DNA of 64,000 bases from a virus: positions 62,001 through 126,000 of IMG/VR virus record IMGVR_UViG_3300027498_000003; one strand, 5' to 3'. The position numbers and the translations under genes were made by a program. This document shows positions 14,444 to 39,875 of this stretch, one piece after another (the first letter of the stretch is position 1; every line of letters begins with the position of its first letter). The notes beneath the pieces were generated by a model. It was not told the origin of the DNA and searched no databases. It worked only from the letters and a program-made list of their open reading frames with translations.

Positions 14444-14453
14444 AGTTTACATA

Positions 14454-17400
14454 TTAAGAACACGAAGCTGATAAGCTCCAGAATGTGTTTGTATTACATT
14501 CTTGGCACCCCGTACACCCTCCACTTATTGATATACTCACAGTGTCTCCCGCATTTACGGATAAGGTAGTAGTAAAGACGCCTGCAGGAGGATAATCAAA
14601 TTCCAAAATTCCGCAATTCGCTGTGCACAGCGTTCCTATGCCGTCTGAACTTATACATCCACTGGTAATTGGCGTACCACCATTGACGCTTATCGTTATA
14701 CTGTCAGGCGTACCTGTTGTGTCGAATGATAACGATAAAGTGCCATTACCGCTCGCTGTGAATGTCTGGCTAATGCTTCCAGATGATCCACTAAATGCTG
14801 TACTTATGTCTTGGCAAGTGTCATTTAGGCTTCCGATACTTCCTACGCATGTGCACTCTGCGTTTAAAGATTGCCCACTCGGGCACGTTGCTGTTCTTAG
14901 TATTTTCGCACCTCCCTCGTCTTCGCAACAGCAAGGTGCATTAGATGAGGTACTGTCGCATACTGGACTATTACCACATGGATCATCAACTACACAAGTA
15001 GTTCCATTACACGTAGACCCTGCGGCGCATCCTGTACCTACTACAGTCCAGCATGGGTTACCGCTATCATCTACACACTCTGAATTTGAATCAGTAGAAA
15101 ATGTGGTTGATCCGCATGCCACGCCTGACGGGCTTGGCGCATTGGACGGGCCACAAGCTCCTGAACAATTCTGGCTACATGGATTAGGGCTACAAGTCGA
15201 GTTATCCCCTTGATAAACTCCTGCGGTCCCATTTATGGTCTGCAAACAGTCTGCCTGTGTGACCCCTTCTGTACAGCTCTCTCCTCTACAACAAGCTCCT
15301 GTAGGATCTCCTCCTGTATCACAATCTCTGACAACTACATTACTAACTTTAAATTTGCAATCACTGTTATTCGGATCTATAAATGTTACTGAATATATAT
15401 TAGCACTTGGATTAGTAGTAATACTCTGAGTAGTAAATGTATTTCCATTATATTCCCAAAGGTAATTATATCCGGACGTAGCCGTTAATGTGGCTGTCTC
15501 GTTATTGTTGGTGCAAATAGGGGTTGGGCTTTGGGTCACTCCTACTCCCATAAAATCAGGACAATCTGAGTTGCAGAATTCTGAGACAGTAACAAATAGT
15601 TTTTTTCCGCAGCCTTGTATATTGTCATTGGTAATTGTCACTATGTAGTTGCCATCCGAAGTAGCTGTTATGCTTTGCTGATTCGTAGCGCCGCTTATAG
15701 TGCCTCCACTCGATGTTGACCAGCTGTAGCTGGTAACAACACCTGAATGTGCTACACTTAATATTATACTCCCATTACCATCAAAACATGCTTGATCTGG
15801 TCCTGATATCTTCGCATCATCCAAGTTACAATCTGTGCTGGCGCATTCTGGGCATGAGCCCTCTTTACAATCAGTAGCTGTACTTTCTTGGCAGTCTGCT
15901 AAACTATTAAACTGTTGAGAGCATTCCGGCCCATTCTGCCCTTGTATACACCCAAATGAAGGAGCAGACGAGCAGTAATCATTAGTGTCAGTTACCGTGA
16001 CTGTTACTGAGCAATTCGCGGCCAAACCATTCACACTTACTGGAATAGTAAAGGATTGACCTACATCTGCACAATTAAAAGTTTGTGGAGGTATACTTAA
16101 CGAAGTACATACCCCCGTAGCTTTGGCAATTAGATTTTGAGTTCTAAATGCGACGTTTTTATCAGAAGTTATATTTGCTGTATAACTTAATTCTAATTCA
16201 TTTGAGCAGTTATTAGGGTCACATTCTGCTTGAGTATCTTTTATCTCGCAATAGCACCCAGATTGGGTATAGGTCTCGTTTACTCCGTAGAAAGTATTAC
16301 ATGCTGAGCAATCTGTCCCTAATACACTACCAGTGGGGTTCTGTGCGCATGTAACGTAATCATTACAACTTGTTCCATCAGAATTTGGCTGAGTACATCC
16401 TGTGCAGTTTAAAGGTTCAGGCAGTATAGTTACTTCGTCTGTAGTTGTACAGAACTCACCATTATCTACAATTATTGTGTAATTCCCTGCAGGAAGATTT
16501 GAAGCCGAAGATGTACCAACAACAGAATTAGAGCTATCTAATATTTGGAAATTTACTCCCCAAGTTGCTGTAACATTTATAGAACTGTTAGGTAAATTAG
16601 AAGATGTCACGTTTATAGATGTATCCGTAAGCTCGCATGTGTTATTGCCCGTTTCGCATCCTGTAGATTTAGTACCTACTATTTGTGCTGTTGTTTGGTT
16701 ACCATTAGCGTCGCAGCAAGTTACGTTCTGAGTTCCACAATAATTATTTGTATTTATACTACTGCACAGGATGAAATTACAAGGATCTGGTATATCTTCG
16801 CAGCAATTTCCGCAACCATTAGGTGCTTGTACTTCTGATCCATTACAGGTAACATTGCCGCAATCCGGGCCTATTGGGTCGCATCCCAAATCTACAATTA
16901 CTACATCTTGATCATTCTGACATACCCTCTTTCTGCATCTTAAACAGTTTTCAGTAGTAGTCTCCAGCACTGCAGGGCCGCAAGTGTCTGGAATATCAGT
17001 AACGATACATTCGCAATTCACATAAAAACCAGCGTCGCCGCTTGTAACAGTACATGGGTCTCCGTTATCAATACCATTAGGACAGTCTGTAGTAGGGATA
17101 ATTGGGTCATCTGCTATATCGCAATTCCCTGTAGCTATTCCTGAAAATTCACACCCATTAGCATCTGTAACCTTCCATGGTATAGATGTAGTCGCAGCAG
17201 GTAGTGATACATTAAATTTACGTGTCCTGCTATTGCGCACAAAAGGGAAAGCTTGGTTACTTTGAGGATCAAATACCGCGTAAGTTATAGGTAGAGTACC
17301 GCCAGATACACTTACTTCATACGACCTAATCGAATACACACTACCTGCTATGCCTTTTGTACAATCTGAAGCCGGCTCTGTGAACGCAAAAGTAGCCGAT

Positions 17401-19778
17401 ATGTCGCAGCAAGATGCAGTTGATGGTAAACCGAAGTCTACAGTTTCTCTATAACATTCCCCTTGCCCATCTCCATATACCACTATAGCTGACGCAGATG
17501 TTAGAGTTCTCGGTATTGTGTATTGGGAGTTATAGATATCTGTATTATTATAGAATACATTTATAACCCCGTTACCGCCTGTAGAGTTGATAACTCTCTC
17601 CCCTCCTGCACATTCTGCAACTATCTGAGGTTTATCTAATGAAGCCTCTAAAGACATATCATAAGTACATCCTATATCCCCAGTATTAACGCAATTCATT
17701 TCTACAGTTACCGAAGTTATAGGTTCGGTATAAGTTAAATTATCATCATAAGGAAGTTGGTCCCTCATAGATAGATTAGACAGTATTGCCGTTCCATTTA
17801 GTTTAATGTTAAATGTATTCGCATCATTAACATCGCATGAATCAGGTATCTGTACTCTTATTTCTGTATTACAGATGTTTAGGGATTCGGCGGTCGACTC
17901 TTCTATTGATTTACAGAATACAACATCTTCGGTTGCATTACCTTCTCCGCAGCAACAAACTGTAGCTTTATAGGTATGGCATGATTCCAGTCTACCTAAT
18001 TGATCTCCTAATATTTTACGTTGTAGGTTTTCATCTTCTAATCCCCCGCCATCTACGCCTTTGAGTACGTGCTCATTTAGATCTGTATATACTCTGATGA
18101 AGTCTCCTAAGTCATCTCTATTCCATTCTACAATAGCATTTCCGCAATCTGAGGAGTTTATAGTATTTGTCTGTACATCTATTTGATTGATGTCAGTTAC
18201 ACGGTAGCTGTAGTACTCTGCTCCGTTATCGCCGCCCCACGTACAGTTAGAATTACTGTTTTCAGTAGGTTTAAGGATGATATCTACTCTTGCTTCTATA
18301 TTATTTCCTCCTACTACTGGCCCTAAATTAATAGGAACCCCATTGATATCTAAAACATCGGAGCCGTTAAATGATGCTCCTGGGTATTCTATAGATTTAG
18401 TAACTACTGTTCGAGTTCTCGTCTGCCCGCCGCCTAAATCGATAACTATCTCTTGTAGATAAGAAACTCTAGCACAAACACTGCCTGATGTAGGTATCTC
18501 CTGATCGTTACCAACAACTTTATTGTCTTGTCGCTCGTCAGAGAGATTGCTACCGTTTTTCTTGAACTGCAGACTGAAGTCTACGTTATTTCCAGATATT
18601 GTGGGTGTGATCGTTGCCTCAAGAGCTGGGCATGGGCAACAGTCGTTTGCCCAAGAAGCCTTGAGATCGCAGTTGTTTCCATCTTCTATCTTTTCTAATG
18701 TAACAGATGTGTCACAAGGTTCGCCGTCGTCTACGCATTGCCCATCTACACATACTTGACCTACTGGGCATACAATACCTGCACACGGGTCAGGTACACA
18801 TTGACCTACGTCGTTGCAAATGCATTCTCGGGAGTTAGCTCCTCCGCAGGCAGACGCTCCCTCTTCTACACAGCTAAAATCTGAGCAATTCTTACAGTAG
18901 CATTGCAGAGCGTTTGCTTCGGCACAAACAGCTCCCGCTTCACTGCATCCTCCTGTCTGGCAATCACATTCTTCTCTACATCCTAATCCATCAATACAAA
19001 TCCTTCCTGCTCCGCAATCTACGGGCACTATTGTACCATAGCCGGTACAAGAATCTATATTTTGGCAACTTTCGCAGGTTGATAACGGTGTAGACCCATT
19101 ACAAGATCCTATGGGAATAGGTACACATTCCCCTGTACAAGTATCTAATGTGTAACCGTCACAGCACACGCATTTGTTACCTTCACACTTTCTGCATCCT
19201 TTAGTCTGATCACAATGTCCATCTAAAGTACATTCTACACAGGCTTCTGTTTCTGGATCGCACTGACTGTCTGGGCATTTAGGTAGGCATGTCCCTCCTA
19301 CGCAATCATAGCACGGCGGGCATGGATTATCATTATCACAATCTACGCAGCAATCTCCGTTAGGGATTCTTCCTGTAGGACATACACAATTACCATTTCT
19401 ACAGATTTGATCGCAAGGACATGGAGTATTATCATCGCACTCCGCACATTGACCATTAAAGCAGGCTTGGTCTGGGCATAAGTCTACACATACACCTCCT
19501 ATACAATCTTGGCATGGCCCACATTCGCCTTTATCGCTACAAAGACATATGGTTTGAATATCTCTACATGTTTCGCAGCCTGCGTCATTGCATACTACAT
19601 CAAAGTCGAAACAAGTCTGGCCCTCCAATTCTGGGTGTAGTTGTATTGTATATAGATCTCCATCAATGCAGTTTATGGCCACATTAGTGTAGCCTCTTAG
19701 TTTAACATCCAGATTCTTGCACGTACTGCCATCCGGTCTTGTGGCGCTAATTCTAAATTGCTTTTTAAGGAGACTCAT
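14454..19778 (-). CDS. Giant Cys-rich adhesin-like virion protein (EGF-like plus PKD/Ig-like), 1774 aa
   Basis: The N-terminal domain (about 1-65) is a short beta domain. Residues 65-360 are dense in Cys, with repeated EGF/TIL-like units such as CQDCIGGVCVDLCPDQAC, CPCDQICRNGNCVCP and CIDGLGCREECDCQTGGC. From about 365 follow long beta-rich segments. At about 880-960 lies a block with SVSGGTLPITYAV, resembling the SprB-type repeats of Bacteroidota gliding adhesins. At about 1370-1480 are PKD-like stretches (SYSWSTSSGGTISGA, SDGNYIVTITN). More Cys modules and a C-terminal jelly-roll-like domain follow (about 1660-1774). No signal peptide is present, so it is probably assembled into the virion as a receptor-binding or decoration fibre. 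It overlaps the preceding gene by 14 bases. Confidence 0.75.
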   Translation of the reverse strand: MSLLKKQFRISATRPDGSTCKNLDVKLRGYTNVAINCIDGDLYTIQLHPELEGQTCFDFDVVCNDAGCETCRDIQTICLCSDKGECGPCQDCIGGVCVDLCPDQACFNGQCAECDDNTPCPCDQICRNGNCVCPTGRIPNGDCCVDCDNDNPCPPCYDCVGGTCLPKCPDSQCDPETEACVECTLDGHCDQTKGCRKCEGNKCVCCDGYTLDTCTGECVPIPIGSCNGSTPLSTCESCQNIDSCTGYGTIVPVDCGAGRICIDGLGCREECDCQTGGCSEAGAVCAEANALQCYCKNCSDFSCVEEGASACGGANSRECICNDVGQCVPDPCAGIVCPVGQVCVDGQCVDDGEPCDTSVTLEKIEDGNNCDLKASWANDCCPCPALEATITPTISGNNVDFSLQFKKNGSNLSDERQDNKVVGNDQEIPTSGSVCARVSYLQEIVIDLGGGQTRTRTVVTKSIEYPGASFNGSDVLDINGVPINLGPVVGGNNIEARVDIILKPTENSNSNCTWGGDNGAEYYSYRVTDINQIDVQTNTINSSDCGNAIVEWNRDDLGDFIRVYTDLNEHVLKGVDGGGLEDENLQRKILGDQLGRLESCHTYKATVCCCGEGNATEDVVFCKSIEESTAESLNICNTEIRVQIPDSCDVNDANTFNIKLNGTAILSNLSMRDQLPYDDNLTYTEPITSVTVEMNCVNTGDIGCTYDMSLEASLDKPQIVAECAGGERVINSTGGNGVINVFYNNTDIYNSQYTIPRTLTSASAIVVYGDGQGECYRETVDFGLPSTASCCDISATFAFTEPASDCTKGIAGSVYSIRSYEVSVSGGTLPITYAVFDPQSNQAFPFVRNSRTRKFNVSLPAATTSIPWKVTDANGCEFSGIATGNCDIADDPIIPTTDCPNGIDNGDPCTVTSGDAGFYVNCECIVTDIPDTCGPAVLETTTENCLRCRKRVCQNDQDVVIVDLGCDPIGPDCGNVTCNGSEVQAPNGCGNCCEDIPDPCNFILCSSINTNNYCGTQNVTCCDANGNQTTAQIVGTKSTGCETGNNTCELTDTSINVTSSNLPNSSINVTATWGVNFQILDSSNSVVGTSSASNLPAGNYTIIVDNGEFCTTTDEVTILPEPLNCTGCTQPNSDGTSCNDYVTCAQNPTGSVLGTDCSACNTFYGVNETYTQSGCYCEIKDTQAECDPNNCSNELELSYTANITSDKNVAFRTQNLIAKATGVCTSLSIPPQTFNCADVGQSFTIPVSVNGLAANCSVTVTVTDTNDYCSSAPSFGCIQGQNGPECSQQFNSLADCQESTATDCKEGSCPECASTDCNLDDAKISGPDQACFDGNGSIILSVAHSGVVTSYSWSTSSGGTISGATNQQSITATSDGNYIVTITNDNIQGCGKKLFVTVSEFCNSDCPDFMGVGVTQSPTPICTNNNETATLTATSGYNYLWEYNGNTFTTQSITTNPSANIYSVTFIDPNNSDCKFKVSNVVVRDCDTGGDPTGACCRGESCTEGVTQADCLQTINGTAGVYQGDNSTCSPNPCSQNCSGACGPSNAPSPSGVACGSTTFSTDSNSECVDDSGNPCWTVVGTGCAAGSTCNGTTCVVDDPCGNSPVCDSTSSNAPCCCEDEGGAKILRTATCPSGQSLNAECTCVGSIGSLNDTCQDISTAFSGSSGSISQTFTASGNGTLSLSFDTTGTPDSITISVNGGTPITSGCISSDGIGTLCTANCGILEFDYPPAGVFTTTLSVNAGDTVSISISGGCTGCQECNTNTFWSLSASCS

Positions 19779-20637
19779 TGTCTAATATCTTTTTTGCGTT
19801 AAGAGGTGCTTTATCCTCTATAATGACATCTAATCCTAATTTCCCCTGCGATAAAGATATACCGTGTTGGTATACAATGTTTAAAGCCGCCGTAGTTAGC
19901 CCCGTATCCAGGCACTCGGCGACTATCTTTAATTCATCACTGCTTACTTCACTAACAATCGCATTCAATATTAGATTCTTTTTTTCTTCTGAAAATTCTA
20001 TTTTGAGCTTTACCGACTCATCTTTGTGTTCTACAGAATTTATATTAAGTCTTATCGGATTCTCTGTTTTAGTAATGTCTTCTGCGTGTATAGACAGGCT
20101 TGATAAGGGTATTTCCTCTGTTGCTATATCTACTATTAGTTTGTTAGGTAGGCTTTTTATAGCCTCGAAGTTTACGTTTATCCCGGCGCAGAAGTCTATT
20201 AGGCACTTTTCCCATACTTCATATGCGAAACAATTTGGGTTAGCTAATTTCCAAATCTCTCTATTGGATTCATCTTTTTCGCAGAGCTCATACTGACCTT
20301 GGCATCCCATAGATGCAAGTTTTATCTTCTCTCTCAGCTTAGTTAGGTCTTCACACTTTAAGCAGGGCTGATACCCCTGTGATAGTTTGTCTTTCTCATC
20401 CTCTAGTACTTCTAAATAAGTGCACAGATCTTCTACGTCTTTGTCTATAGTAGAGCTACATTCGTGCCCCCAGCTATCCCTTCTTAGTTTCTGCTCGGAC
20501 AATATAGACAGTTTATTGTATCCTGCTTGTAGATCCTTTGAAATGCCAAAAGTGCTGCAACATTTAGAGTTGTCAGCACATTGGTTAGCACTCTCTGAGC
20601 ATGCGGTATGTTGTATGCCTTTCTTTAACATCCGCAT
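19765..20637 (-). CDS. Cys-containing helical-plus-beta virion protein, possible adaptor
   Basis: A 290-aa protein lying between two giant Cys-rich proteins and overlapping both (13 bases at its start, 14 at its end). Residues 1-160 are helical and Cys-rich (CADNSKCCSTFG, CLKCEDLTKLREKI, CQGQYELCEK). Residues 160-290 look like one or two beta domains (LSSLSIHAEDITKT, SVKLKIEFSEEKKN). No family is recognised. Its overlap on both sides suggests it is made in step with the giants and may connect or fold them. That is inference. Confidence 0.65.
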   Translation of the reverse strand: MRMLKKGIQHTACSESANQCADNSKCCSTFGISKDLQAGYNKLSILSEQKLRRDSWGHECSSTIDKDVEDLCTYLEVLEDEKDKLSQGYQPCLKCEDLTKLREKIKLASMGCQGQYELCEKDESNREIWKLANPNCFAYEVWEKCLIDFCAGINVNFEAIKSLPNKLIVDIATEEIPLSSLSIHAEDITKTENPIRLNINSVEHKDESVKLKIEFSEEKKNLILNAIVSEVSSDELKIVAECLDTGLTTAALNIVYQHGISLSQGKLGLDVIIEDKAPLNAKKILDNESP

Positions 20638-23600
20638 GCGTCTTTATCTGCTTGAGTTATTGTGAACGATGCCGATCCTGTATCGCTGCCGCAACTTGAA
20701 TTAACAGTAACTGAAGCTGTGGCTACTTGGTTTAGGGATGCTGAACATATGTTTAGTAAATTTGCCTGCAATGTAGAGAATCCGCAAGAGGTAGTTCCCG
20801 AAGAAGATCCAGTTGATCCTGACGCATCGGTAAAAGAGCCTGTCCACCCTATATTGTTGTCACTACAGCAGTCACATGAAACTTCGCCCTCTGCCAATAA
20901 ATTACATCCTGAAAGAGTTATACTCACATTGGATGTTACACTTCCTGAATTTGTCCCATCAACCATATTTCCACAATCATCATCACACGTATTTCCTATA
21001 CAAGTTGATGCTGCACAATTATTAGGGGTGCAACATGCTGGATCATTAGCGTTAAGTTTGTTTATAGTAACACTATCTTGGCTACCAGAAGCCCCCGGGC
21101 AATCTGGATCATAAGTCATAACTAATGTTCCAGAACTGCCACTTATGTCATTATGACTTACTGATTCTGAAGGTCCTGTTCCGATTTGTACTCCGTCTAA
21201 CGTCCACGTAATACTTCCTGGACAATTGGATACGGAAGCGCTTGATAGTGCGTAGAGACTTGAGTCTCCCGGACAAAGAGCCGAGCTTCCTCCTCCAATA
21301 CTTGCTGTACAATTTGCTGATCCACCACATACTCCGCAATCATCAGTTACGCAACATGACGGGTCATCTGAATCTAATTTACTAATCGTTATACTATCTT
21401 GGCTACCAGAAGCCCCCGGGCAATCTGGATCATAAGTCATAACTAATGTTCCAGAACTGCCACTTATGTCATTATGACTTACTGATTCTGAAGGTCCTGT
21501 TCCGATTTGTACTCCGTCTAACGTCCACGTAATACTTCCTGGACAATTGGATACGGAAGCGCTTGATAGTGCGTAGAGACTTGAGTCTCCCGGACAAAGA
21601 GCCGAGCTTCCTCCTCCAATACTTGCTGTACAATTTGCTGATCCACCACATACTCCGCAATCATCTGAAGTTGGACCTTCGCAATTTCCGTTTGACGAAT
21701 TACAACTTTGACAAGGATCTGCGCATGTTACAACATCTCCATTACCACACGGTCCGCATATACTTCCGTCTGAACCTATTAGCTGAGTGGTTCCTGTAAT
21801 ACATGCATTATTGCTGCCACAGGGTTCAGTCGTAGCACATGTACAATATTCACAACTATTATCACTGCAATCAAAAATCCCTCCATTACAAGCTACATTA
21901 TCTGTACATCCAAATGTTAACTCGTCAGGCGTGGTTATTGAATTGGTTGACCCCGATATTGTACTATCGTTATCACAAGTACATCTTGTCTGTATTGTTA
22001 AATTATCTGAATATGTTGGAGGAGTCGCAGTCCAGTTTACGGCATCTACGCTATATTGTATTGTAGTTTCTGCTTGACAACCAGATGTTACATTTACTGA
22101 ACCTGTATTATTAGTACAAGTCGGTATTGTTATATCAGCAACAGGGGCTTGGGCTATCGTTTCTGGGCATTTTGGTTCACATGACTCTATAGTAAACATT
22201 TCTTTCACTACTTCACATGTCACCTCTGGGTCTATGTACCTAACACACGCATCGTATGCTCCTGCCGCATCTATTACTGTTTGGTTATTAGAACTGAATG
22301 TTATGTTATCAAAGCTATATTCTACATCTGTGCCTTGTGTAATATTTATAGTAATAGTTCTATTATCTCCGTCTTCTAAACATTCTGCCGCACCGTCTAT
22401 AGTAAACTCAATATTTGGTAAACAGCTTCCGTCATCACAATTTGCTTCTGGATTAAAGTTACAGGCAGTGCTGTCTGTGCACCCCTCTACTCTCAAGAAT
22501 CCTTCTACTATTCCCGTACAATCTCCTGCGGAATATATTATAGTACCATCTGATTCTATATTAACAGTATTTGATCCCGATTGACCCCCTGCTAAATTAA
22601 ATACTACCCCACCTACAGTTATTGGAGCCGAATTCGATCCCAAGTACATGCTGTTTGTAACAGTAGCTGAAATTGTATTCGGATCTCCATCGCAATCTAA
22701 TGTGCTTTCATCCACTTCTATGTTCAAACAACTACAAGTATCATATACTAACTCTTCTGATCTACAGCAAGGGCTTCCGTTAAGATTACCCGATTGTACA
22801 TGAACAGATAATGTATCTCCTAATATTACGTTATTTCCCGCCGAATTCTCTGAATTATAATCCGAATCAGCATTAGTCCAAATAGATTCTGACGATCCAT
22901 TATACGTCCATATCCATTCGATATTCTCTAAATTAGCTGTGTCTGGGGATGTTAACAATACAGAAGTTGATCCCGTGGGGTTTACGTCTATTGAATAGGT
23001 ACATCCTCCTTTCAGTATTATATCTCCTGATAAGTTGTAAGGATTACCAGAGCTATGATCTGGTGCTGTTGTAGGTATTGTCGTACTTTCTATTTCCCCG
23101 CAACCCGGATTTACGTCTACCACACAATTGAAATAGTTTACGCTTGTAACATTTCCAAACTCATCCGTAACCAATTCTGTCTGACAAGAAACGTTCACCC
23201 CTACTGTAGGGCACGGTTCATCGTCTGGTGTATTTGCAAATGGCGCATCTCCGCATTCAGTTAAGGTTATTTCTTTTTGACAAGGATCGCCGGGTTCCCC
23301 TGAGTTGTCTGTATTCTGACATCCTGAAGGTGTACAAACTTCCCCTGTTGGGCAGCCACTTGTAGAGCAATCTGGCGTACAGCTACATATTCCTCCTGAA
23401 CATTCTGGTGTAAAATTATCTGAACAAGTTAGGTTACTGCAATCAACTCCGTCGCAAGGATCGGGAGCTGATATGGGTTCGCATTGGCACGTTTTGTCTT
23501 CTTGACATACGCAGCTCTCCCCTTCTGGACAATTTGTACAATCTGTCGATGTACATGGATTTGTATCGCAATCTGGTAAACACTTACATCCTTCTTCAGA

Positions 23601-24101: not shown

Positions 24102-24107
24102 ATATTG

Positions 24108-25520
24108 TTATTCGCAACAAGGCGTCAAGAATAGTCTATAGTTATTATTGAAATTTGGTGTATTTGTGGTGTATATCTCTACTGAGGTGGCAGGGGCATC
24201 GGATAACCACCTTGGATTTACACCATTCGTTGCTTGGTCAACACCGTCACTCGTGGGCGGAGCTGTAACTTGGTAGTTTGGATGTGAACTTGTATCAGTA
24301 TACCCCGCCTTTAGGGATCCTCCAACATAAGAATATGTTACACCATCTAAAGAAGTAAATCCGTCTATACCTGATTCAGATATATTCTTACCATGCTGCA
24401 CTGTTATTTTAACTGGTTGAGTGCCTGATACCGTCCATGTAGTTGACGCCGAGTCACTGGTAGTTAACGCTGCGTCGCTGTTATTTTGTGTATTTACATC
24501 ATTAGAAGAGATCGTGACGCTGCCTGACGGTAAGCCCCATAAAGCAGAAACATCCTCGCTAACAGCCTTCCCTACTTCTCCCCCTTGTAAATCAAAAAGA
24601 GTAGCAACTACTTCGGCTTCTACACCGCAGAAGCTACAATCCTTAGTTCCTTTCCCACAAGTCACCTCTGGGCAACCGCTATCTGGAATAGGATCGTCTG
24701 GGCAATATGTATCTGTATCTGGGCAATTTGGTGTACAGCTATTGTCTAAAGTACCATCACAGGTGCCTCCGCATTTATCTGGACAGGTCATACCTATTAG
24801 CGTAGTTGCAGCGCAGCTACAATCAGGCTCACAAGGCTCCCCTATGCAACAACATACTCCTAACCCTGTAGCATCTCCTGTATAAGGAGTTCCATCTAAG
24901 TTACTGTAAGTAGCATTGTTTTGGCAATCTAATTTCCATATGACTTTAGCTTTTTCCGCATCTCCGTCTACACATAGTATATCTGTTGCTATAGATGGTA
25001 ATTTGTAGATATCTCCTTTTCCGTCGCATAATTCACAATCCCCTAATGTAATACTATCACAGGGATGAATATAGTTAGGTACGCACTCCCCTTCGCCATC
25101 GCATGTCTCATTTGGTCCGCAATTAGCTGTCTCACACGGGTGAGAGTACTGTGTTACTGTATTAGTTACTTGGCCAGTTGTATCGTTGCAATTTGTAGTA
25201 ACCCCCTCCCCTATAGTTATGTCTTTATAAGATAAGTCTTTGATCCATGTATCATTATAACAATCGTATGTCCATGTAACTATTACATCTAAATATTCCT
25301 CTACTATCTCCCCGCCGTGGGCAATTCCTACTACTGCTTCGTCGAAACAATCTTCTACTGTAGGAATATTCGCAGGAGCTAATAACATATCATCAAAAGC
25401 TGCGCACTGGAAGTTCCTGTGCATATAGGATTGCTTAGATAGTATCTTACCATCTTTCCTGTATGAGTCGCAGATACTGAAGTTGTCCTGCGTTAAGCGT
25501 GTTGGTTTATTACAATCCAT
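24108..25520 (-). CDS. Cys-rich virion protein, 470 aa
   Basis: The N-terminal ~110 residues are non-repetitive (SYMHRNFQCAAFDDML, VIVTWTYDCYND-type strands). Residues ~110-330 are Cys-rich with EGF-like spacing (CETANCGPNETCDGEGEC, CCCIGEPCEPDCSC, CGKGTKDCSFCGVEAE). The C-terminal ~140 residues are Ser/Thr-rich beta sequence (SGSVTISSNDVNT, SASTTWTVSGTQP). The N-terminal portion shares wording with the next giant protein (CNDTW-, YTGD-type segments such as DGTPYTGDATGLGVCC against GTEYIGDLSNLEICC), so the two probably share a domain. It is a likely fibre or decoration subunit. The start is separated from the upstream stop by 10 bp. Confidence 0.7.
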   Translation of the reverse strand: MDCNKPTRLTQDNFSICDSYRKDGKILSKQSYMHRNFQCAAFDDMLLAPANIPTVEDCFDEAVVGIAHGGEIVEEYLDVIVTWTYDCYNDTWIKDLSYKDITIGEGVTTNCNDTTGQVTNTVTQYSHPCETANCGPNETCDGEGECVPNYIHPCDSITLGDCELCDGKGDIYKLPSIATDILCVDGDAEKAKVIWKLDCQNNATYSNLDGTPYTGDATGLGVCCCIGEPCEPDCSCAATTLIGMTCPDKCGGTCDGTLDNSCTPNCPDTDTYCPDDPIPDSGCPEVTCGKGTKDCSFCGVEAEVVATLFDLQGGEVGKAVSEDVSALWGLPSGSVTISSNDVNTQNNSDAALTTSDSASTTWTVSGTQPVKITVQHGKNISESGIDGFTSLDGVTYSYVGGSLKAGYTDTSSHPNYQVTAPPTSDGVDQATNGVNPRWLSDAPATSVEIYTTNTPNFNNNYRLFLTPCCE

Positions 25521-25530
25521 TATTTACTTA

Positions 25531-28500
25531 TTAGTATGCCCAGTTTATTTCTATCTCTGAGAACGAAGTTATTGTTGCTGCCTCTCCTGTTAATGGATTG
25601 ACAACATCAGCAGTTATGTTAATTGGGTATATGCCTGGGCCTGGGAAACATACGACATTATCTAATCTCACTCTACGTCTTGAATCATCTCCTATTGTCG
25701 CGCCGTCTGTAGATATGTCTCCTGTATTACCTGCACCACCGATCGTGTATGTTGAATTTGTAATTTGCCAATCATTTAAATTGCTATTACCATTGTTTTC
25801 AGCAATCCACAATTCCAATCTGTCTAAACAAAAATCATTACAAGAAGTGGGGGTGTAGTTCACTCTTCTCGCCTCTACGCCTATAGCAACTCTGTCAGGA
25901 CCTACTCCGTAGTAAGCCTCTCTATACAAATCTATTTTACCAATTAAACCATTAATTCTATCATTATCAAACTGCTCTATACAACCTGCGCCTGTGTTAC
26001 TTTGTATATCAACTATACGTCCTACAGTTTCAATAAAAACTGGTGCAAGAGGAGGGAAAGGGCTTGCCGTAGTTTGATAATTTTCACAACCTGTTATACT
26101 GTAATTCGATAATAAGTTGTCGGCAGCTCCATTAACCCCTTCAGTATTTATAAAGACATGTATAGGATCACCGGCAACTGGGTATTCCCTAATTTCTGCA
26201 TCAAAATTTGATGTTTTACCAAGGGGTATTTTGCATATTTCAGATATATTGTCAGGATTAACTGACTCTATAGGACACGTTGTCGATCCTTGTCCCCCCA
26301 CAAAAATGTGAGTTTCAAGCTCTTGTGCAAATGTTCTGCTATCTAATGCCCTTGTAGTGATTGGCGTATTACCGTTTATGCTACTTTGGCCTGTCGCAGC
26401 GTATATGTTGCCTGTTGCATTAGCCCAATCTCTCTTATTGAAAGAGAAAGATAATCCATTTCCAAAATCTCCTGTTGGAGAGAAGTTAGTTATAGATAAG
26501 CCATCTGTCCTATCTGAGGCATAATCTGCGCTACAAAGAGTCCCTGTTATAGTTTCCCATAAAGTGCCCTCCTCTAAAAACACTTCAAATCTAAATGGCT
26601 CTCCGCAAGCTACTAAAGCTCCTGAAGGTGCTTTTACATATGATTGACTTCCTGTCGCCGCCACTCCTGTAGTTCCGTTGGTTTCCTCCCAAGCTAACCT
26701 TGCCTCTGGATTTTGATTTTCATTAAGTACATTTATATCTGCATCTGAAGTAGAGTTAGGTCCGTTGACTCCATCATTCCCCACTGCTGTTACGACATTT
26801 GGTATAAACTCAAATCCTGTTGAATCTGGATCAACTTGCACAACTACGTCTATTGATTCACAATCTCCCGGAGCTAATGGCCCTGCAAAAGTCCATGTTA
26901 ATCTAGTTCCTAACGGGTCTATAGCCGTTGTTACATTTCCTCCTGCTGCCGTTCCTCCATCATCTGAAGTATAGATCAAAGGTGATTTCAATACATCTGA
27001 AGTAGTTATATCTGTTATTGGTCCTGAAGCTGCTGGCTCATTACACACGGTTATTGTATAAGTAAATGTATCTCCTGCAGCAACTGTACCAGCCTTTACA
27101 TCATTTGTCTTATCTACTCTTATTTCTCCTATAGGAGGTGGTGTGAACGTAAAGAGGTCAGTTACTGTGTTTGATATAGTACCGTCTGGGCATTTAATAC
27201 ATGTCTGGATTCCCTCAGCGATTGCTTTACTACAATCGGTAGGTCTAACATAAGCTTTTCCGTCGCCTGTTAACGCTACTAACTCTAAATTAGTAGGATT
27301 GTCTATGCCTTTTAACACATAGGTTCCATTTCCACTTGATATTAAATTACCATCTTCATCATAAGTTTCACAAGGGGTGTCATTTGTACTTAAATCAAAT
27401 ACTTGAACTCCACAATTAGACTCCATCTCAAAAGTTTCACCTGCCTCAGACGTTATAGTTGTTGTACATGCTGGTACGCACCATTCTGCTACGGTTCCGT
27501 CTACTGCTGTGTGTGTGAGTGTTTTTGTTCCATCCTCATTATTTACTACTTCTACTGAATCTGTTCCTACACAAGCTATGACATCTTCGCAAGAAACAAA
27601 CGTCCCTCCATCACTTCCTATAGTTGCCAAGTTATCTTCATCAGTTGATGTTACTGTAATATCTACTGTATGATTCGCTGGTCCACTTTGATTTACCCCT
27701 GTTGTATCCCCATCTGTAGTAACTACTAAATCAGTTTCTGGTGGTACTGTAAAAGTGGTTTTGTTCCCTTGAGGGTCTGTTATTATTAAAGTAGTCGGAT
27801 CGTTAGGGTCTATTATTACGCAACATCCGTTAACTATGAATGGATCCGCCGGTGACCCTGTGCCTGTTATAACTACGTTATTTCCTTGTTGTATCGCGGT
27901 GACAATTGGGTACACGCTCTCTACTCCCTCCGCATCAATTATGGTAAGCTCACCTGTAGTTGGGTCGAAACTGCTGCAGCATCCATTTACAATGTAAGGA
28001 TCTGCAGATGTACCAGTTCCTGTTATCGTAATGTTATTGCCCGGTGTAACTGGGGTTATATTGCCTACTGGCACGCATACCACGTTCTCTGTAACTATTG
28101 ATCCAGTGATGTTATCTACTAAATCAAAGCAGATCTGAGGATTTGCCGGGTCTGAGTTATCTGGCTTAGGTACGCATTTTAGATCGGTATCTAAGTCTCT
28201 TAAACATTCTCTTAATTCTGTTAGGCTAATTCCCTTTATCTCTACGCTACATGCTATGTCACATCCTGAGCAATCTGTAAATTCCAGGTTTGTCTCTATC
28301 TTAAACGGCGCGAGAGAGTCATCTTCTACAATGAAGCACACCTCTAAAGTTTCCTCGGCACCACAATCCACATCGATATTTCTCCACTCGGTCGTTCCTT
28401 GCGTATACGATCCTACTGAAGGATTACTAACTGTGCTTGGGTCGATAGCCAGGCCAGGAGGAAGAGTCCAAGTAAATGCGGCTCCAGTTATAGGCGCACC

Positions 28501-28590
28501 ATTACTCGGTGCCTTAATTGTAAAAGGGTGACAAAAAATGCCACCTGTTTTTATTATACCGTTATATACTGTTGGGGTGCACTTTGCCAT
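25531..28590 (-). CDS. Fibre-like virion protein with DUF11-type domain, 1019 aa
   Basis: Residues 1-170 contain a Cys-bearing beta domain (DCSGCDIACSVEI). At 184-205 and 236-257 there are two copies of a GNN-V/I-ITGTG-ADP-IVNGCC unit, a pattern common in phage tail fibres. Around 500-620 lies a DUF11-like (conserved repeat) domain: IGEIRVDKTNDV, DTFTYTITVCNEP, TWTFAGPLAPGDCE and FIPNVVTA. DUF11 is otherwise typical of bacterial surface proteins. The C-terminal ~370 residues are further beta-rich sequence with ANNxxF/SITG-type elements. There is no signal peptide. It is probably a receptor-binding or decoration fibre. Confidence 0.75.
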   Translation of the reverse strand: MAKCTPTVYNGIIKTGGIFCHPFTIKAPSNGAPITGAAFTWTLPPGLAIDPSTVSNPSVGSYTQGTTEWRNIDVDCGAEETLEVCFIVEDDSLAPFKIETNLEFTDCSGCDIACSVEIKGISLTELRECLRDLDTDLKCVPKPDNSDPANPQICFDLVDNITGSIVTENVVCVPVGNITPVTPGNNITITGTGTSADPYIVNGCCSSFDPTTGELTIIDAEGVESVYPIVTAIQQGNNVVITGTGSPADPFIVNGCCVIIDPNDPTTLIITDPQGNKTTFTVPPETDLVVTTDGDTTGVNQSGPANHTVDITVTSTDEDNLATIGSDGGTFVSCEDVIACVGTDSVEVVNNEDGTKTLTHTAVDGTVAEWCVPACTTTITSEAGETFEMESNCGVQVFDLSTNDTPCETYDEDGNLISSGNGTYVLKGIDNPTNLELVALTGDGKAYVRPTDCSKAIAEGIQTCIKCPDGTISNTVTDLFTFTPPPIGEIRVDKTNDVKAGTVAAGDTFTYTITVCNEPAASGPITDITTSDVLKSPLIYTSDDGGTAAGGNVTTAIDPLGTRLTWTFAGPLAPGDCESIDVVVQVDPDSTGFEFIPNVVTAVGNDGVNGPNSTSDADINVLNENQNPEARLAWEETNGTTGVAATGSQSYVKAPSGALVACGEPFRFEVFLEEGTLWETITGTLCSADYASDRTDGLSITNFSPTGDFGNGLSFSFNKRDWANATGNIYAATGQSSINGNTPITTRALDSRTFAQELETHIFVGGQGSTTCPIESVNPDNISEICKIPLGKTSNFDAEIREYPVAGDPIHVFINTEGVNGAADNLLSNYSITGCENYQTTASPFPPLAPVFIETVGRIVDIQSNTGAGCIEQFDNDRINGLIGKIDLYREAYYGVGPDRVAIGVEARRVNYTPTSCNDFCLDRLELWIAENNGNSNLNDWQITNSTYTIGGAGNTGDISTDGATIGDDSRRRVRLDNVVCFPGPGIYPINITADVVNPLTGEAATITSFSEIEINWAY

Positions 28591-28592
28591 AA

Positions 28593-29066
28593 TTACTTAG
28601 TTAAACTTTTTGTACAATCTAATCCTTGATCAAAACATTCTTGTATTTGCTTGCAGGATATTCCTGCTGATATTTTAGTCAATTGGCTTGCCATAAATAG
28701 CAAACACTGCTCTTCATCCATCTGAGTAATAGTTACCGTCGTCGGGAATACACACTCATTGGTTACTCTTAAATTCAAAGTACCTTCTAATGCTTCATCA
28801 GAGCATTGGGTCCCTACTTCTATTGTCTCTGTGTTAGCATTATAACTACCAATTGATAGCGTGGAGCTTACGTATTCCAATCCCCCTAAATTTACCACAT
28901 AGCTGACCCCATCTACGCAGGTCTTCGCTACGTCACAAGCCACACCCTCCTCGTTCTCGGCAGATCCTATGCCAAAGTACTTTATAGGGACACTTATGAT
29001 GTCGCCGCATTTAGCAAAATCTAAATGGATGCTTGGCTGCTGGTATGGTGCTGGTGTCTGTATCAT
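28593..29066 (-). CDS. Small virion-module protein, 157 aa
   Basis: Starts MIQTPAPYQQPSIHLDFAKC. It is a mostly beta protein with paired Cys (CDVAKTCVDG, CKQIQECFDQGLDC near the C-terminus). It lies 2 bp upstream of the DUF11-type fibre gene, and its stop directly precedes the next ATG region. Phrases such as LEYVSSTLSIGSYN and TLNLRVTNECVFPTTVTIT resemble the N-terminal domain of the following fibre, which suggests a related fold. No family is recognised. Confidence 0.6.
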   Translation of the reverse strand: MIQTPAPYQQPSIHLDFAKCGDIISVPIKYFGIGSAENEEGVACDVAKTCVDGVSYVVNLGGLEYVSSTLSIGSYNANTETIEVGTQCSDEALEGTLNLRVTNECVFPTTVTITQMDEEQCLLFMASQLTKISAGISCKQIQECFDQGLDCTKSLTK

Positions 29067-29645
29067 TTAAGAAATACTTACGTCATTTGGACAATTATCA
29101 ATCTTCTGCTTAGTAGAAACCTTTCTTTTTGTTGCTACTGGGGGCCTACCTATTATAGGTCGGACTCTCACGATTTTATCTTTAACAACAGGCTTAACTG
29201 GATTTTCGTAACATATCTGCTCCTCGATAATCACTCCGCACTCCTCTGCTGGCGGATCCACCTCAACTTCTGGGCATGGTTTCTTTTTAACTTCGATCGT
29301 TATTGATGCGATGTTGTTCCCAGTGTCTTCTGTGGTACTGGTATATCCTGTTACAGAGTAAGTACCAGATACTATCGTTAAGTCAGTTACGCATGCCTGC
29401 CATTGTACGGTGAAAGTCTGATCTGGGTCTTTACAGTCTTTGTCTCCTATAATCCAAGCAGGCTGACCTTCGGGGCCTAATCCGAATGTAGTACTATTGC
29501 CATATACATCCTGAGGGTTGCCTAAGAATGACACATCTGCGCCCGGTATGTCAGGCAGCTCAAGCATTACGCCCTTTACGCATTCCTCCAGCCTTATTGT
29601 GTTGCTGAATGTTTGGCAGTCTCCTATAGTTGTAAATATTGTCAT
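29067..29645 (-). CDS. Virion-module protein, 192 aa (start corrected by TAATG overlap)
   Basis: The open frame extends upstream to 29738, but the ATG at 29645 (MTIFTTIGDCQTF) overlaps the upstream stop by one base exactly like other junctions in this operon, so I place the start there. The protein is beta-rich (VTDLTIVSGTYSVTGYTS) with a Pro/Val-rich C-terminal tail (VKPVVKDKIVRVRPIIGRPP) and a basic end. The next gene begins directly after its stop. It is of unknown function and probably a minor structural protein. Confidence 0.65.
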   Translation of the reverse strand: MTIFTTIGDCQTFSNTIRLEECVKGVMLELPDIPGADVSFLGNPQDVYGNSTTFGLGPEGQPAWIIGDKDCKDPDQTFTVQWQACVTDLTIVSGTYSVTGYTSTTEDTGNNIASITIEVKKKPCPEVEVDPPAEECGVIIEEQICYENPVKPVVKDKIVRVRPIIGRPPVATKRKVSTKQKIDNCPNDVSIS

Positions 29646-30181
29646 TACTTTACTATTATTTGGCCTGAAGTATTCTGAGTCTCTCCTACTATTATTGCTC
29701 CCGGCTTTGGTATACATAAGCCTGTACACGGATCGCACTTCTCACAAGTTTCATCACAGTTCACACATTTGCATATATCTTCTATGTACGGTGTGATACA
29801 GAAATAGACTGTTCTTGTTACTCCGTCCTTGCCTTTGCAACATGCTTCTATGACAATATCTGAATAGCGATTGGGTTGATCTCCTACTGTAATAAAGCTT
29901 AATTCTGTTCCTGTAATCTCTGGATTAGCAAACATCGTAGAATCATAGGACTCTACTGAGTATGATATTTCTCCTTCGCATACACATGAATCTAATATAA
30001 GAGTTGAAAAGTCTACGGATTTAGAATCTCCGCAAGGTTTAAGAGGGTTGTCAGGATCAGAAGGTACTGTTCCGTCGCATATGTTAAGGCATGAGCATTT
30101 CTCTGCCTTAGGAGGGCATGGTGACGATTTACTTGAGCAAATCGATATACAAAAACAAGGGTCTATTTTCTCGTATGCCAT
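29645..30181 (-). CDS. Cys-rich virion-module protein, 178 aa
   Basis: The N-terminal 50 residues contain CFCISICSSKSSPCPPKAEK and CSCLNICDG. The centre (55-140) looks like one beta domain (ISYSVESYDSTMFANPEIT). The C-terminal portion has a second Cys cluster (CKCVNCDETCEKCDPCTGLC) resembling a knottin or zinc cluster. The stop overlaps the next ATG (TAATG). The same modular recipe, a Cys cluster plus a beta domain, recurs across the block 14454-32646. Function is unknown. Confidence 0.65.
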   Translation of the reverse strand: MAYEKIDPCFCISICSSKSSPCPPKAEKCSCLNICDGTVPSDPDNPLKPCGDSKSVDFSTLILDSCVCEGEISYSVESYDSTMFANPEITGTELSFITVGDQPNRYSDIVIEACCKGKDGVTRTVYFCITPYIEDICKCVNCDETCEKCDPCTGLCIPKPGAIIVGETQNTSGQIIVK

Positions 30182-30190
30182 TTTCTATTT

Positions 30191-30694
30191 TTAACAACAT
30201 TTGTCGCAACTCTCCATAGATAGATCTTCATCTAAAGAACTATACAACTCTTTCACTCTTTCAGTCAGTCCCAACTTAGCGCTGGCTTTAACCTCTTTCA
30301 TCCTCCCCCAAAATTCTGTTTTACCTTGAGCCGTAAGCTGGGTAATAGAACATAACATTTGAGGAGCTATAAGTTCTGTCTTAGTGAACTCCGTATCCCC
30401 CCACTCCCCGTTTTCGCATGATTTACATGCCTTTGCTTGTATGCAGTATATCCCATCTTCAATGCAGCCAGATACTCCTAAATCTGAATTAGTTATAATC
30501 GTAGATCCTGTTGGATTTACTTTTAGAGTAATTGGCTGGTCACTATCTGGAGCTGTGATGTATATTTCGTGCTCATCGGGGATAGTATAGTTTCCCTCAG
30601 TTTGCCACGTAGAAAGATGCACAAACTCTAATGTCTTTACATCGAGAGTATTTATCTTAAAATCAAAGTCTCCTTTTATACAGCTGCATGCCAC
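30191..30694 (-). CDS. Virion-module protein, 167 aa
   Basis: The beta-rich N-terminus (FDFKINTLDVKTLEFVHLSTW) contains an EHEIYITAPDSDQPITLKV stretch. The C-terminal half is helical (GRMKEVKASAKLGLTERVKEL) and ends SCDKCC. Paired Cys occur at CIKAKACKSC-type spacing (CIQAKACKSCENG). It is separated by 9 bp from its upstream and 7 bp from its downstream neighbours in orientation of transcription. No family is recognised; it is probably structural by context. Confidence 0.6.
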   Translation of the reverse strand: MACSCIKGDFDFKINTLDVKTLEFVHLSTWQTEGNYTIPDEHEIYITAPDSDQPITLKVNPTGSTIITNSDLGVSGCIEDGIYCIQAKACKSCENGEWGDTEFTKTELIAPQMLCSITQLTAQGKTEFWGRMKEVKASAKLGLTERVKELYSSLDEDLSMESCDKCC

Positions 30695-30701
30695 TGTTTA
30701 A

Positions 30702-30920
30702 TTATTTTACTCCTCCTTCACAAGGTGGTAAAGCTTTAAAATCTGCTATAGGTAAAGTCTTTACTACTCCGCCCTCTACATAGATAGCCACGGTTTCGCC
30801 TGTACATCGATCCTTAATAGTATAGGCCTTTCCGCAAGTAGAGCAGCCACATGGCTTACATTTCTTGTAGAGCCCTTCTAAAGCTTCTATGGCTAATTCT
30901 TTTATTGTACCTCCTAACAT
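30702..30920 (-). CDS. Small Cys-cluster protein, 72 aa
   Basis: A 72-aa protein with six Cys, four of them in CKPCGCSTCG at residues 21-30, suggesting a zinc knuckle or disulphide knot. A short hairpin segment follows (TVAIYVEGGVVKTLPI). It begins 28 bp after the upstream gene's stop. Small Cys proteins like this may help cross-link or template the Cys-rich fibres around them, but the sequence does not prove that. Confidence 0.6.
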   Translation of the reverse strand: MLGGTIKELAIEALEGLYKKCKPCGCSTCGKAYTIKDRCTGETVAIYVEGGVVKTLPIADFKALPPCEGGVK

Positions 30921-30948
30921 GGTTATCTATGTTTAACTGTTTAGTTAT

Positions 30949-32646
30949 TTACTCCTTCTCTTCCTCCGGCGGGCACTCTTCGATAGCTTCTGCACACGTC
31001 CCTATCTTAGGTACATGACACTTGGTAGCTGAAGACTCTGCTAATGCTGTGAAGAATAGTTCTAAAGCTTCTCCGGCAACTGGATGATCTTTATCTACTC
31101 CCCATATTGTCTCATAGACGCACACTTGCGGAGTTTTACCATCTTCGGCCATAGTGCTTCTCTTATTCCTCCACTCATATCTGCAATACTTGCTACTGCA
31201 CTTAGCACATGTGGCAGCGTTTCTCTCTCTGCCGTACTTATCTTTTCTGAGATCACCATGGTATCCCTCTCTTTCTGAGTCATTATTCCACCATTCGCCT
31301 TCCGCTTCTCGATTAGCCTCTTCCCATCTCATTATCCCTCCAGACCCTGTTGGAATCTTAGGCTCCATCAACTCTCTTCCGTATGATACGATGCCGCAGT
31401 TGGTGGGGTCCCCTTTAAGTAGTTCAACTTTAAGAAATCTTAGGAATGTATCTGGCGGTGGGTCACTTGGTCCACAAGGACAATCACATTCGAATTTATC
31501 CTGATCAGCAACCCAAATAATTCCGCAGCAAACTTTATTCTCTGCAACAATCGCTTCTACGCATCCTCCGCCTTCACAATCTTTATACCCTGGCTTATCT
31601 TTCTTTGTGAAAGGCTCATCAACTTTCAATACATCACATGGCTCCAATCCTGCAATAGCAAAACCCTCGTCACAAGTATTGACCATCAGCTGCCTTGGGC
31701 AGCAGTCATCTGTTCCTCCAGAAACAAAAGCTGTACCACTGTGGGGGCCTAAGATCTCTTTGAACTTACAATTGATTTGGTCTACAATTGTATCTAACTG
31801 ACCTAAGAATGTTTTATCTCCGGCTGCGTTAGTAGTATTCTCAAGTACTACAGTTTCACCGCCTATGGTTACTTCTGTGATTGCAGCAATAGAGTTACAA
31901 TCATCACAAGAGCACTCTTCTTTGGTCGGCGCAAGGCAATACACTGGGAAGTAGCAGTTGGCTACCATCCAAGTTACGTTAGTCTTCTCTGTAGGGCATA
32001 CCGTTTTTATTCCTGGATATCCTATTCCATTATCTCCTGCGGTTTTTATATTACCCATCAGTTGATCTACCAAATTCATCATTGGTTTCTGGCAACCTCC
32101 TTCTCCTGGGCAATCATCACATCCTTGGCAGCATTCTACAGGTGCAGACGCTTCGTATATCTCATAACCTCTCTCTTCTTCGTCCATCCATGAAGCTATC
32201 CTATTATCATGCTTCTTAGCTCTAATAGAAATAGTATCTCCGCATTCGAAGCATCCATCGATACCTACATAGCCTATCTGAGGTTGTGGGCATGAATATC
32301 CTGTAACATCGATATTGACTAAATCACAAGCAGTCATATACTCTCCCGCGATATACCTGATGCCGTTAGCATAATTCTTACCGTACTGAGATTCAAGTTG
32401 ACCTATAAATATCTGCTCGTCTGTAAGATTCGGTATGTCGGTATGGTCGATAGTTGTATACGTATCTCCGTCATAGATGTAAGAGATCCACTGACCCACT
32501 TCTCCGGGAAGTACATACTCAGAATCCGCACAATCACCTTCGACGCACGGCCAAAGCTCTATGCCTCTTTCTACGAAAGGTAAATCCTTGCATGAGACTA
32601 GTACTTTATTTCCTATCTCTGGGGTTACTGTCTTTAATGACTGCAT
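30949..32646 (-). CDS. Cys-rich structural protein, 565 aa
   Basis: The protein has many Cys pairs through its length: CVEGDCADSE, ECCQGCDDCPGEGGCQ, CSCDDCNS, CDCPCGPSDPPP and ATCAKCSSKYCRYEW. Segments of ordinary alpha/beta sequence lie between them (QIFIGQLESQYGKNYANGI, KTFLGQLDTIVDQINCKF), and the two FxGQL-DTI/ES- phrases may mark a repeated domain. The C-terminus is acidic (ECPPEEEKE). It is encoded between the capsid-proximal genes and the Cys-rich fibre block. A capsid decoration or tail component is possible. No family is recognised. Confidence 0.65.
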   Translation of the reverse strand: MQSLKTVTPEIGNKVLVSCKDLPFVERGIELWPCVEGDCADSEYVLPGEVGQWISYIYDGDTYTTIDHTDIPNLTDEQIFIGQLESQYGKNYANGIRYIAGEYMTACDLVNIDVTGYSCPQPQIGYVGIDGCFECGDTISIRAKKHDNRIASWMDEEERGYEIYEASAPVECCQGCDDCPGEGGCQKPMMNLVDQLMGNIKTAGDNGIGYPGIKTVCPTEKTNVTWMVANCYFPVYCLAPTKEECSCDDCNSIAAITEVTIGGETVVLENTTNAAGDKTFLGQLDTIVDQINCKFKEILGPHSGTAFVSGGTDDCCPRQLMVNTCDEGFAIAGLEPCDVLKVDEPFTKKDKPGYKDCEGGGCVEAIVAENKVCCGIIWVADQDKFECDCPCGPSDPPPDTFLRFLKVELLKGDPTNCGIVSYGRELMEPKIPTGSGGIMRWEEANREAEGEWWNNDSEREGYHGDLRKDKYGRERNAATCAKCSSKYCRYEWRNKRSTMAEDGKTPQVCVYETIWGVDKDHPVAGEALELFFTALAESSATKCHVPKIGTCAEAIEECPPEEEKE

Positions 32647-32654
32647 ATCTTTAC

Positions 32655-33380
32655 TTATTTATAAATGCTATTATTTGTTATTATTTCCTTCAGCTTTAAT
32701 TCGCTGAACTGTACTTCGTTGTTTGCTACTGCTGCGTGGTATATTGCTACATCCACTATCTTGTGTCCTAAAGGTTCGCAAGCGTCTAAATCATGGGGCG
32801 TGATTAGTTGTCCATCCCAATCTTTAGCAGCTACTCCTGAGCAATCATCTAAATCAGATAATTGTATAGGCTTTATCTTTCTATAGTATCTAAGATTTAC
32901 GCAGTCTATGTCAAATGCACAATCATGATAGATCACGGCGCCTTGCTTTGTATCTTGAGCAATTACGTTTTCTTTGAAGAAATCCGATTTTCTATGTGGA
33001 TTTTTTCTAGCAGAATCAAGCTCATCATGCTGCGGGAACCAAGCATCAATACGTTTATTGATTCCTGGGCAACAACTGTTGGTGACATTTACTTCTAAAC
33101 TATTTCTATAATAAAAATCTTTTGGATAAGTAATCTCGCAACAATTGCTATCTAATTTCTTACATTTCAAAGGTTTCTTCGGCTCCGACAATAAGTGCCT
33201 AAGAAGGTTGTTTATGGTTTGGTTCTGTCCTTGTTCTTCTATTAAGTGAGTTACTATATCCCAGTAACTTTTATTAAAGAACATGGCTACTTCTAAAGCT
33301 CTATAGTCCTTTGTTTTGCCGGACATTAAAGCTCCTCTTCTCAGAAGAAACTCCGTGAAGAGTTTATTTCTGCTTACCAT
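32655..33380 (-). CDS. Head-tail region protein, 241 aa
   Basis: The N-terminal ~90 residues are helical (YRALEVAMFFNKSYWDIVTH). The remainder has Cys pairs (DSNCCEITYP, NVTNSCCPGINKR, YHDCAFDIDCVNLRYYRKIK). It overlaps the upstream gene by 17 bases and is followed 8 bp later by the 565-aa Cys-rich gene. Its position, two genes after the capsid protein, suggests a head-completion or connector role. I see no motif that decides. Confidence 0.6.
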   Translation of the reverse strand: MVSRNKLFTEFLLRRGALMSGKTKDYRALEVAMFFNKSYWDIVTHLIEEQGQNQTINNLLRHLLSEPKKPLKCKKLDSNCCEITYPKDFYYRNSLEVNVTNSCCPGINKRIDAWFPQHDELDSARKNPHRKSDFFKENVIAQDTKQGAVIYHDCAFDIDCVNLRYYRKIKPIQLSDLDDCSGVAAKDWDGQLITPHDLDACEPLGHKIVDVAIYHAAVANNEVQFSELKLKEIITNNSIYK

Positions 33381-34425: not shown

Positions 34426-34447
34426 GATATATTTCCCCCCTTTTTTA

Positions 34448-36022: not shown

Positions 36023-36066
36023 TTGCTTATCTTTTTTTGCAAAAATTCTCTTATCTACTTATGAGG

Positions 36067-37287: not shown

Positions 37288-37315
37288 AAGTTATATTTTT
37301 GATAATATTAAAAGT

Positions 37316-37323: not shown

Positions 37324-37371
37324 TATTAAATATAACTTCAGTAAACTACATGAATAGGTGATAAGGGGTAC

Positions 37372-39852: not shown

Positions 39853-39875
39853 ATTGGGGATGTTATGTTATGTTA

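Follow-up and report, generated by a model that had tools for sequence, protein, structure and literature searches.

Disulphide bonds are already known to hold some phage tails together. In the crAss-like phage PhicrAss001 they stabilise the tail barrel and the fibre hubs, joining hub to hub, hub to ring and ring protein R1 to R2 (PMC10172136), while in Agrobacterium phage Milano a disulphide network runs throughout the tail, with 2.1% cysteine in the structural proteins as compared with 0.9% in the proteins of T4 overall and 0.7% in those of A511 (PMC10811340). The present analysis concerns a far more cysteine-rich set of genes, found in a 64,000-base stretch of viral DNA ("the window", bases 62001-126000 of the 126,546-base contig IMGVR_UViG_3300027498_000003). 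They form a block at 14454-32646; positions are those of the window unless given as contig positions, and the block, ring, muzzle, cargo and head genes all lie on the minus strand. With a probability of roughly two in three, this block specifies the fibres and outer tail structures of a crAss-like phage that takes disulphide bonding to an extreme. A trait known from crassviruses, the disulphide-stapled tail with cysteine-rich adhesion fibres, would here be elaborated much further, most likely with oxidation after lysis.

Cysteine content of the fibre block

The first-pass annotation of this DNA, made from the letters alone, had singled out about eleven consecutive cysteine-rich late genes, and open reading frame (ORF) integrity, cysteine counts and an in-frame TGY test all confirm them. 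The ORFs from 14454 to 32646 are without exception intact and co-oriented; ten encode proteins of 157-1774 aa, which together with the 72-aa ORF at 30702-30920 (6 cysteines) accounts for the "eleven". Counting instead the eleven ORFs of at least 150 aa that lie between the ring genes R3/4 and R2 (13553-32646), there are 466 cysteines in 6,297 residues, or 7.4%, with a maximum of 11.2%; the two largest block proteins stand at 9.4% and 10.5%. The remaining ORFs of the contig, those outside the fibre block, rings, muzzle, cargo and capsid set, contain 1.45%, and the 9% mark is attained by none of 645 distinct ORFs of at least 400 aa in related loci, the 5% mark by five. TGY triplets make up 7.39% of the block when read in frame, as against 0.87% and 3.80% when read out of frame; an artefact of base composition can therefore be rejected, and selection thus acts on the amino acid. 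The composition is otherwise like that of extracellular proteins, with threonine, serine, glycine and asparagine raised and lysine and arginine lowered.

Cysteines in such numbers might instead hold zinc or iron-sulphur centres, which would account for the folding of these proteins in a reducing cytoplasm with neither oxidation nor any oxidase, and a few CxxC and CC..C stretches are indeed present, for instance in the protein encoded at 30949-32646. CxxC is nevertheless at its random level, without significant excess in any of the block proteins (the largest has 18 where 12.9 are expected, p 0.08), and histidine is depleted fourfold (0.57% in the block versus 2.47%); metal sites of the zinc or iron-sulphur knuckle type are therefore disfavoured. 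No Zn-ribbon or ferredoxin family matches the block in Pfam, and the precedent structures show disulphides, so a metal-binding tail seems highly unlikely.

Cysteine and virion topology in a crAss-like phage

By its protein matches the phage is a deep-branching crAss-like member of the Crassvirales. Its TerL, portal and major capsid protein (MCP) match the crAss-phage families phrog_6681 (E 1e-42), phrog_6547 (E 3e-37) and phrog_11589 (E 1e-8). The closest annotated TerL and portal are those of Cellulophaga phage phi14:2 (Crassvirales, Steigviridae), with 25.7% identity over 88% of TerL (E 3e-41), and TerL is at most about 28% identical to any sequence found. Neither single-protein scans of viral contigs nor tblastn of phage records with the MCP, block and second-cluster proteins (see below) gave close relatives; relatives were recovered instead via TerL and muzzle alignments. 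A Bacteroidota host is probable.

The genes run in the order TerL-portal-MCP-ring-fibres-ring-IHF-ring-muzzle-cargo, as they do in phi14:2, PhicrAss001 and Leptolyngbya phage Lbo-JY46, and include a muzzle and several tail ring paralogues (PF24228, PF25702, phrog_15924 and the muzzle alignment). The block had been said to sit where crAss-like phages keep their fibre genes, and the synteny of rings, muzzle and cargo bears this out; an integrated host locus, which the first-pass annotation had considered, is rejected because this canonical order encloses the block. The conserved head and packaging genes occupy 33364-42317 (MCP 34448-36022, portal 37372-39852, TerL 39876-42317). Between them and the fibres comes a Ring protein 3/4-like protein, R3/4 (32655-33380, 9 cysteines), supported by phrog_15924 (E 2e-5), by relatives (E 1e-5) and weakly by PF25710. 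On the other side lie R2 (12768-13496, 8 cysteines; PF25702, 47.5 bits), an IHF-like protein placed and sized like phi14:2 g073 (12313-12768), and R1 (11243-12313, 11 cysteines; PF24228, 31.3 bits), both ring proteins being above the cut-offs of their Pfam crassvirus families. They are followed by the muzzle protein (5486-11164, 58 cysteines), which belongs to phrog_15100 and aligns with PhicrAss001 gp44 and others, and by the cargo and virion RNA polymerase genes, at 1-5493 and running past the window (contig 54712-67493). Between R2 and the fibres a 296-aa protein with 10 cysteines (13553-14443) holds the place of a tail hub gene; its top match is hub protein B, though not significantly so.

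Cysteine enrichment tracks the topology of the virion, and not the block borders originally noted. The enriched zone is wider, since the 13553-14443 protein, R2, R1, the muzzle and R3/4 are all at 3.1-3.7%. By compartment the fibre block has 7.40%, R3/4 3.7%, R1 and R2 together 3.2% and the muzzle 3.07%, while the IHF-like protein, an internal contrast, has no cysteine at all. A comparison with other structural proteins had been suggested, and it sets the block against 0.72% over the five capsid, portal and terminase genes and a single cysteine in the 4,256 residues (0.02%) of cargo and virion polymerase. The 16 outer proteins of the phage average 5.9%. Beyond the window, at contig 33850-39892 (L003:13850-19892), there is a second minus-strand cluster rich in cysteine, which consists of five proteins of 152-851 aa with 5.2-8.1% cysteine (6.0% overall) and without family matches. 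It is upstream of a Family A DNA polymerase (contig 40356-43157, L004:356-3157), the sequence of which looks intein-interrupted; Hint and LAGLIDADG homing-endonuclease families were matched in the same protein set.

The same contrast is seen, in a milder form, in related crAss-like phages. An alignment of three muzzle proteins led to 80 loci, from which 36 representatives, all below 60% identity in the muzzle, were compared. By the median, cysteine makes up 0.09% of their downstream cargo, as against 1.78% of the fibre region, 1.32% of the muzzle and 2.10% of the ring trio, the three genes that precede it; in all 35 loci that could be tested, each of these outer classes surpasses the cargo (Wilcoxon p=6e-11). 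In both fibre and muzzle cysteine the window lies above every representative. In R2, conservation extends to the individual residues: five of the 20 most conserved columns among 30 sequences are cysteine, which makes up 2.7% of the residues, with C191 invariant, C88 kept in 97% and C82 and C69 in 90%, and C69, C82 and C191 align with C60, C74 and C178 of PhicrAss001 gp40. That virion proteins of phages are as a rule cysteine-poor, a premise of the first-pass annotation, thus needs qualifying, there being exceptions in PhicrAss001 (PMC10172136), in Milano (PMC10811340) and, less strongly, in these relatives.

PhicrAss001 shares with the window phage its virion plan, its gene order, cysteine in the ring and hub proteins (11 in the 215 aa of hub protein gp38), with the R2 columns just mentioned, and a cargo nearly free of cysteine (7 in about 7,480 aa of gp45, 46, 47, 49 and 50). 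Its enrichment, however, is mainly in hub A (5.1%) and R2 (2.2%), as against 3-11% in the window phage, with 0.85% in R1, less than 1% in R3/4, 0.73% in the muzzle and about 1.2% in the fibre-region proteins examined. Phage phi14:2 is syntenic and its virion genes are verified by mass spectrometry, but apart from its distant TerL it differs in fibre-region proteins that mostly have 0-1% cysteine, one protein of 186 aa having 3.2%. Milano also shows virion-wide enrichment of its structural proteins, in which disulphides both between and within chains have been demonstrated, though it is a contractile myovirus with unrelated proteins and its 2.1% falls well short of the 5.9% over the outer proteins here.

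Proteins of the block and the modules they share

The largest protein of the block (14454-19778, 1774 aa) is fibre- or adhesin-like and carries 167 cysteines, 68 of them within the first 400 residues; it has no relative in the PDB or in phage records. It is followed by a 290-aa protein with 14 cysteines and no significant family (19765-20637), and by one of 1158 aa with 122 cysteines and a near-exact internal duplication (20625-24101). Next come proteins of 470 aa (24108-25520, 33 cysteines), 1019 aa (25531-28590, 35 cysteines) and 157 aa (28593-29066, 9 cysteines). The 223-aa ORF at 29067-29738 has 8 cysteines and a GTG start that lies inside its neighbour, so the true start is probably internal. 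The highest fraction, 11.2%, belongs to a 178-aa protein with 20 cysteines (29645-30181).

The 167-aa protein at 30191-30694 (10 cysteines), a putative adaptor, belongs to a cysteine-rich family whose position in crAss-like phages is fixed (hhalign probability 94.8, E 5.5e-8; hmmsearch E 6e-6). AlphaFold predicts an FN3-like beta-sandwich with a three-helix bundle (pLDDT 86.6), and the cysteines are placed in loops, strands and both tails, a layout that, in the model, would be suited to linking subunits. When the protein is set against hub protein A (PF25724), the homologous family still matches with gp38 included, though Pfam has no match to members of the family and Foldseek returns FN3 domains and not gp38. 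The last protein of the block (30949-32646, 565 aa, 38 cysteines) stands where the auxiliary capsid protein is expected, and position and a short C...CC..C stretch agree with crassvirus auxiliary capsid protein PF25650; hhalign is not significant, and the model, with a pLDDT of 39, is unusable.

The domain labels first given to these proteins were tested with Pfam and NCBIfam profiles against cut-offs, and only one of them stood. A DUF11-type beta domain (PF01345) is present at residues 492-614 of the 25531-28590 protein (30.7 bits against a cut-off of 24.6), with a weak DUF11-like match, below cut-off at 20.7 bits, in the 157-aa protein. PKD (PF00801) remains sub-threshold in the 1774-aa protein (11.4 bits against 23.5), no EGF-like or knottin profile matches the block proteins at E<=1, and the SprB repeat (PF13573) has no match in the window. 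The proposed likeness to secreted Bacteroidota adhesins loses these labels but keeps a different support, the module GCTDxxAxNFNPxAxxDDGSC at about residues 537-563 of the 1158-aa protein. This is shared with a fibre protein of another crAss-like phage, G007 (E 1.5e-13), where it occurs in tandem. The exact IUPAC pattern, among the matches listed from bacterial and archaeal genomes, is mostly in Bacteroidota and in some cases in Neomarinimicrobiota and archaea; by a loose heuristic, the N-terminus is signal-like in 80 of 95 of these ORFs. Secreted adhesins of the type 9 secretion system (T9SS) in Bacteroidota thus have the module in common with the window, though the window proteins have no signal peptide and, in the five scanned, no T9SS C-terminal sorting domain (TIGR04183). 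Gut crAss-like phages are likewise described as having modular adhesins, with Ig, BACON and PKD domains; these are not characterised as cysteine-rich in the extracts of that report (PMC13370021), and the window has the DUF11 domain and the sub-threshold PKD.

Two fibre proteins of relatives are observations in their own right. That of G007 (IMGVR_UViG_3300001450_005500; L217:14129-16486) is a 785-aa protein within the fibre block. It begins with a signal-like N-terminus, carries GCTD repeats in tandem and scores above cut-off for a T9SS type A sorting domain; it appears to be phage-borne and yet built for type 9 secretion by the host. That of G001 (L094:2492-4093) has genuine SprB repeats (30.3 bits against 28), and its N-terminal segment resembles, by eye, crassvirus tail hub protein B, which suggests a hub-adhesin fusion.

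Given the module in the window, in phage fibres and in Bacteroidota, and the T9SS domain and SprB repeats in relatives, an exchange of modules between phage fibres and secreted host proteins is well supported by the matches. That the block proteins might bind or imitate surface proteins of the host is plausible. One might then take the cysteines for passive by-products of genes acquired from the secreted proteins of Bacteroidota, with no redox role in the virion. The complete T9SS cargo protein and the true SprB repeats just described speak for this, as does the fact that fibre cysteine varies independently of ring cysteine among relatives. It would leave unexplained, however, why the phage's own scaffold proteins, R1, R2, R3/4 and the muzzle, are rich in cysteine; for most block proteins no counterpart in the host can be recognised; and the only tRNA gene of the phage is one for cysteine, suggesting that the demand for cysteine matters. 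On balance passive acquisition is unlikely.

Elsewhere in the window are an IS200/IS605-type gene pair, TnpA (Y1 transposase) and TnpB-like (OrfB, Cas12f1-like TNB), within the phage genome at 46785-48312, and, in the early region, a SET-domain protein (51468-52520, 36 bits, above cut-off) adjoining a weak matrixin-like peptidase match (50661-51464).

Probable oxidation of the particle and its wider meaning

The absence of signal peptides noted at first is borne out by a heuristic hydropathy scan, which finds none at any N-terminus of the block (best 11-residue hydropathy 1.55). The Pfam matches listed for the other contig ORFs of at least 85 aa include no disulphide-forming or redox enzyme. 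Oxidation after lysis is therefore the simplest route. Synthesis and assembly would take place in the cytoplasm of the host, where the cysteines would stay reduced; on lysis the proteins would meet an oxidising exterior, where pairs could close within fibre modules and between ring and hub subunits. Barrel, hub, fibres and muzzle might thereby be covalently stapled, the hub-ring and R1-R2 staples being known experimentally in PhicrAss001. Stiff fibres of beta domains, resistant to proteases and shear, would then serve as adhesins to the envelope of the probable Bacteroidota host, with whose secreted proteins they share some modules. Threading of partly unfolded cargo through the tail has been proposed for PhicrAss001 (PMC10172136), and the depletion of cysteine in the cargo here fits such a mechanism; cargo passing unfolded through the tail may have been kept nearly cysteine-free to escape trapping by disulphides.

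Surface thiols or strained disulphides might also exchange with host surface proteins, giving covalent docking or opening of the muzzle. The Milano network must break for contraction (PMC10811340), and exchange of this kind has been proposed in part for the reduction of its disulphides on infection; the very high and partly odd cysteine counts leave room for free thiols, and the muzzle, as gatekeeper, has its 58. Yet the sequence singles out no exchange-active, CxxC-like sites, and a redox-active tail must be considered very improbable.

The sole tRNA gene in the contig is a tRNA-Cys(GCA) on the plus strand at 60921-60994 (ARAGORN; Rfam RF00005, 43.6 bits). It may help to supply a high late demand for cysteine, though it may also be there by chance, as other cysteine-rich relatives with few tRNAs carry different ones. 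A general companionship of tRNA-Cys and cysteine-rich fibres is rejected, the gene being absent in those relatives.

Several points tell against a disulphide-locked outer tail. The disulphides of this phage are predicted from its sequence, the membership of each protein in the virion is deduced from synteny, and the most cysteine-rich proteins lack relatives deep enough for folding. Cysteine counts are odd in four of eleven block proteins, so pairing within chains would by itself be incomplete. The cysteine-rich relatives with few tRNAs have none for cysteine. Finally, fibre and ring cysteine are uncorrelated across relatives (Spearman 0.006, p 0.97), and a coordinated redox programme for the whole virion is therefore not supported. 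There seem instead to be two layers, one of staples, conserved in rings and hubs, and one of fibres, which varies. A broader rule can be put forward only tentatively: the crassvirus exterior would be selected for cysteine and mature by oxidation into a disulphide-locked shell outside the cell, ejected proteins would be purged of cysteine because they must be threaded and refolded, and the window phage, supplied by a tRNA-Cys of its own, would be the most extreme member.

A disulphide-stabilised crassvirus tail is, as a kind, already known; new here are how far it goes, its extension to fibres, rings and muzzle, and the contrast in cysteine, seen across the order, between the outside and the cargo. 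An isolated remark on the disulphides of one crassvirus tail thus becomes a quantitative, testable pattern across a major order of phages. As an extreme case in nature, the phage lends itself to studying the time and place of particle oxidation and whether this serves maturation or triggers entry, and it bears as well on how secreted host modules come to be recruited into phage fibres.

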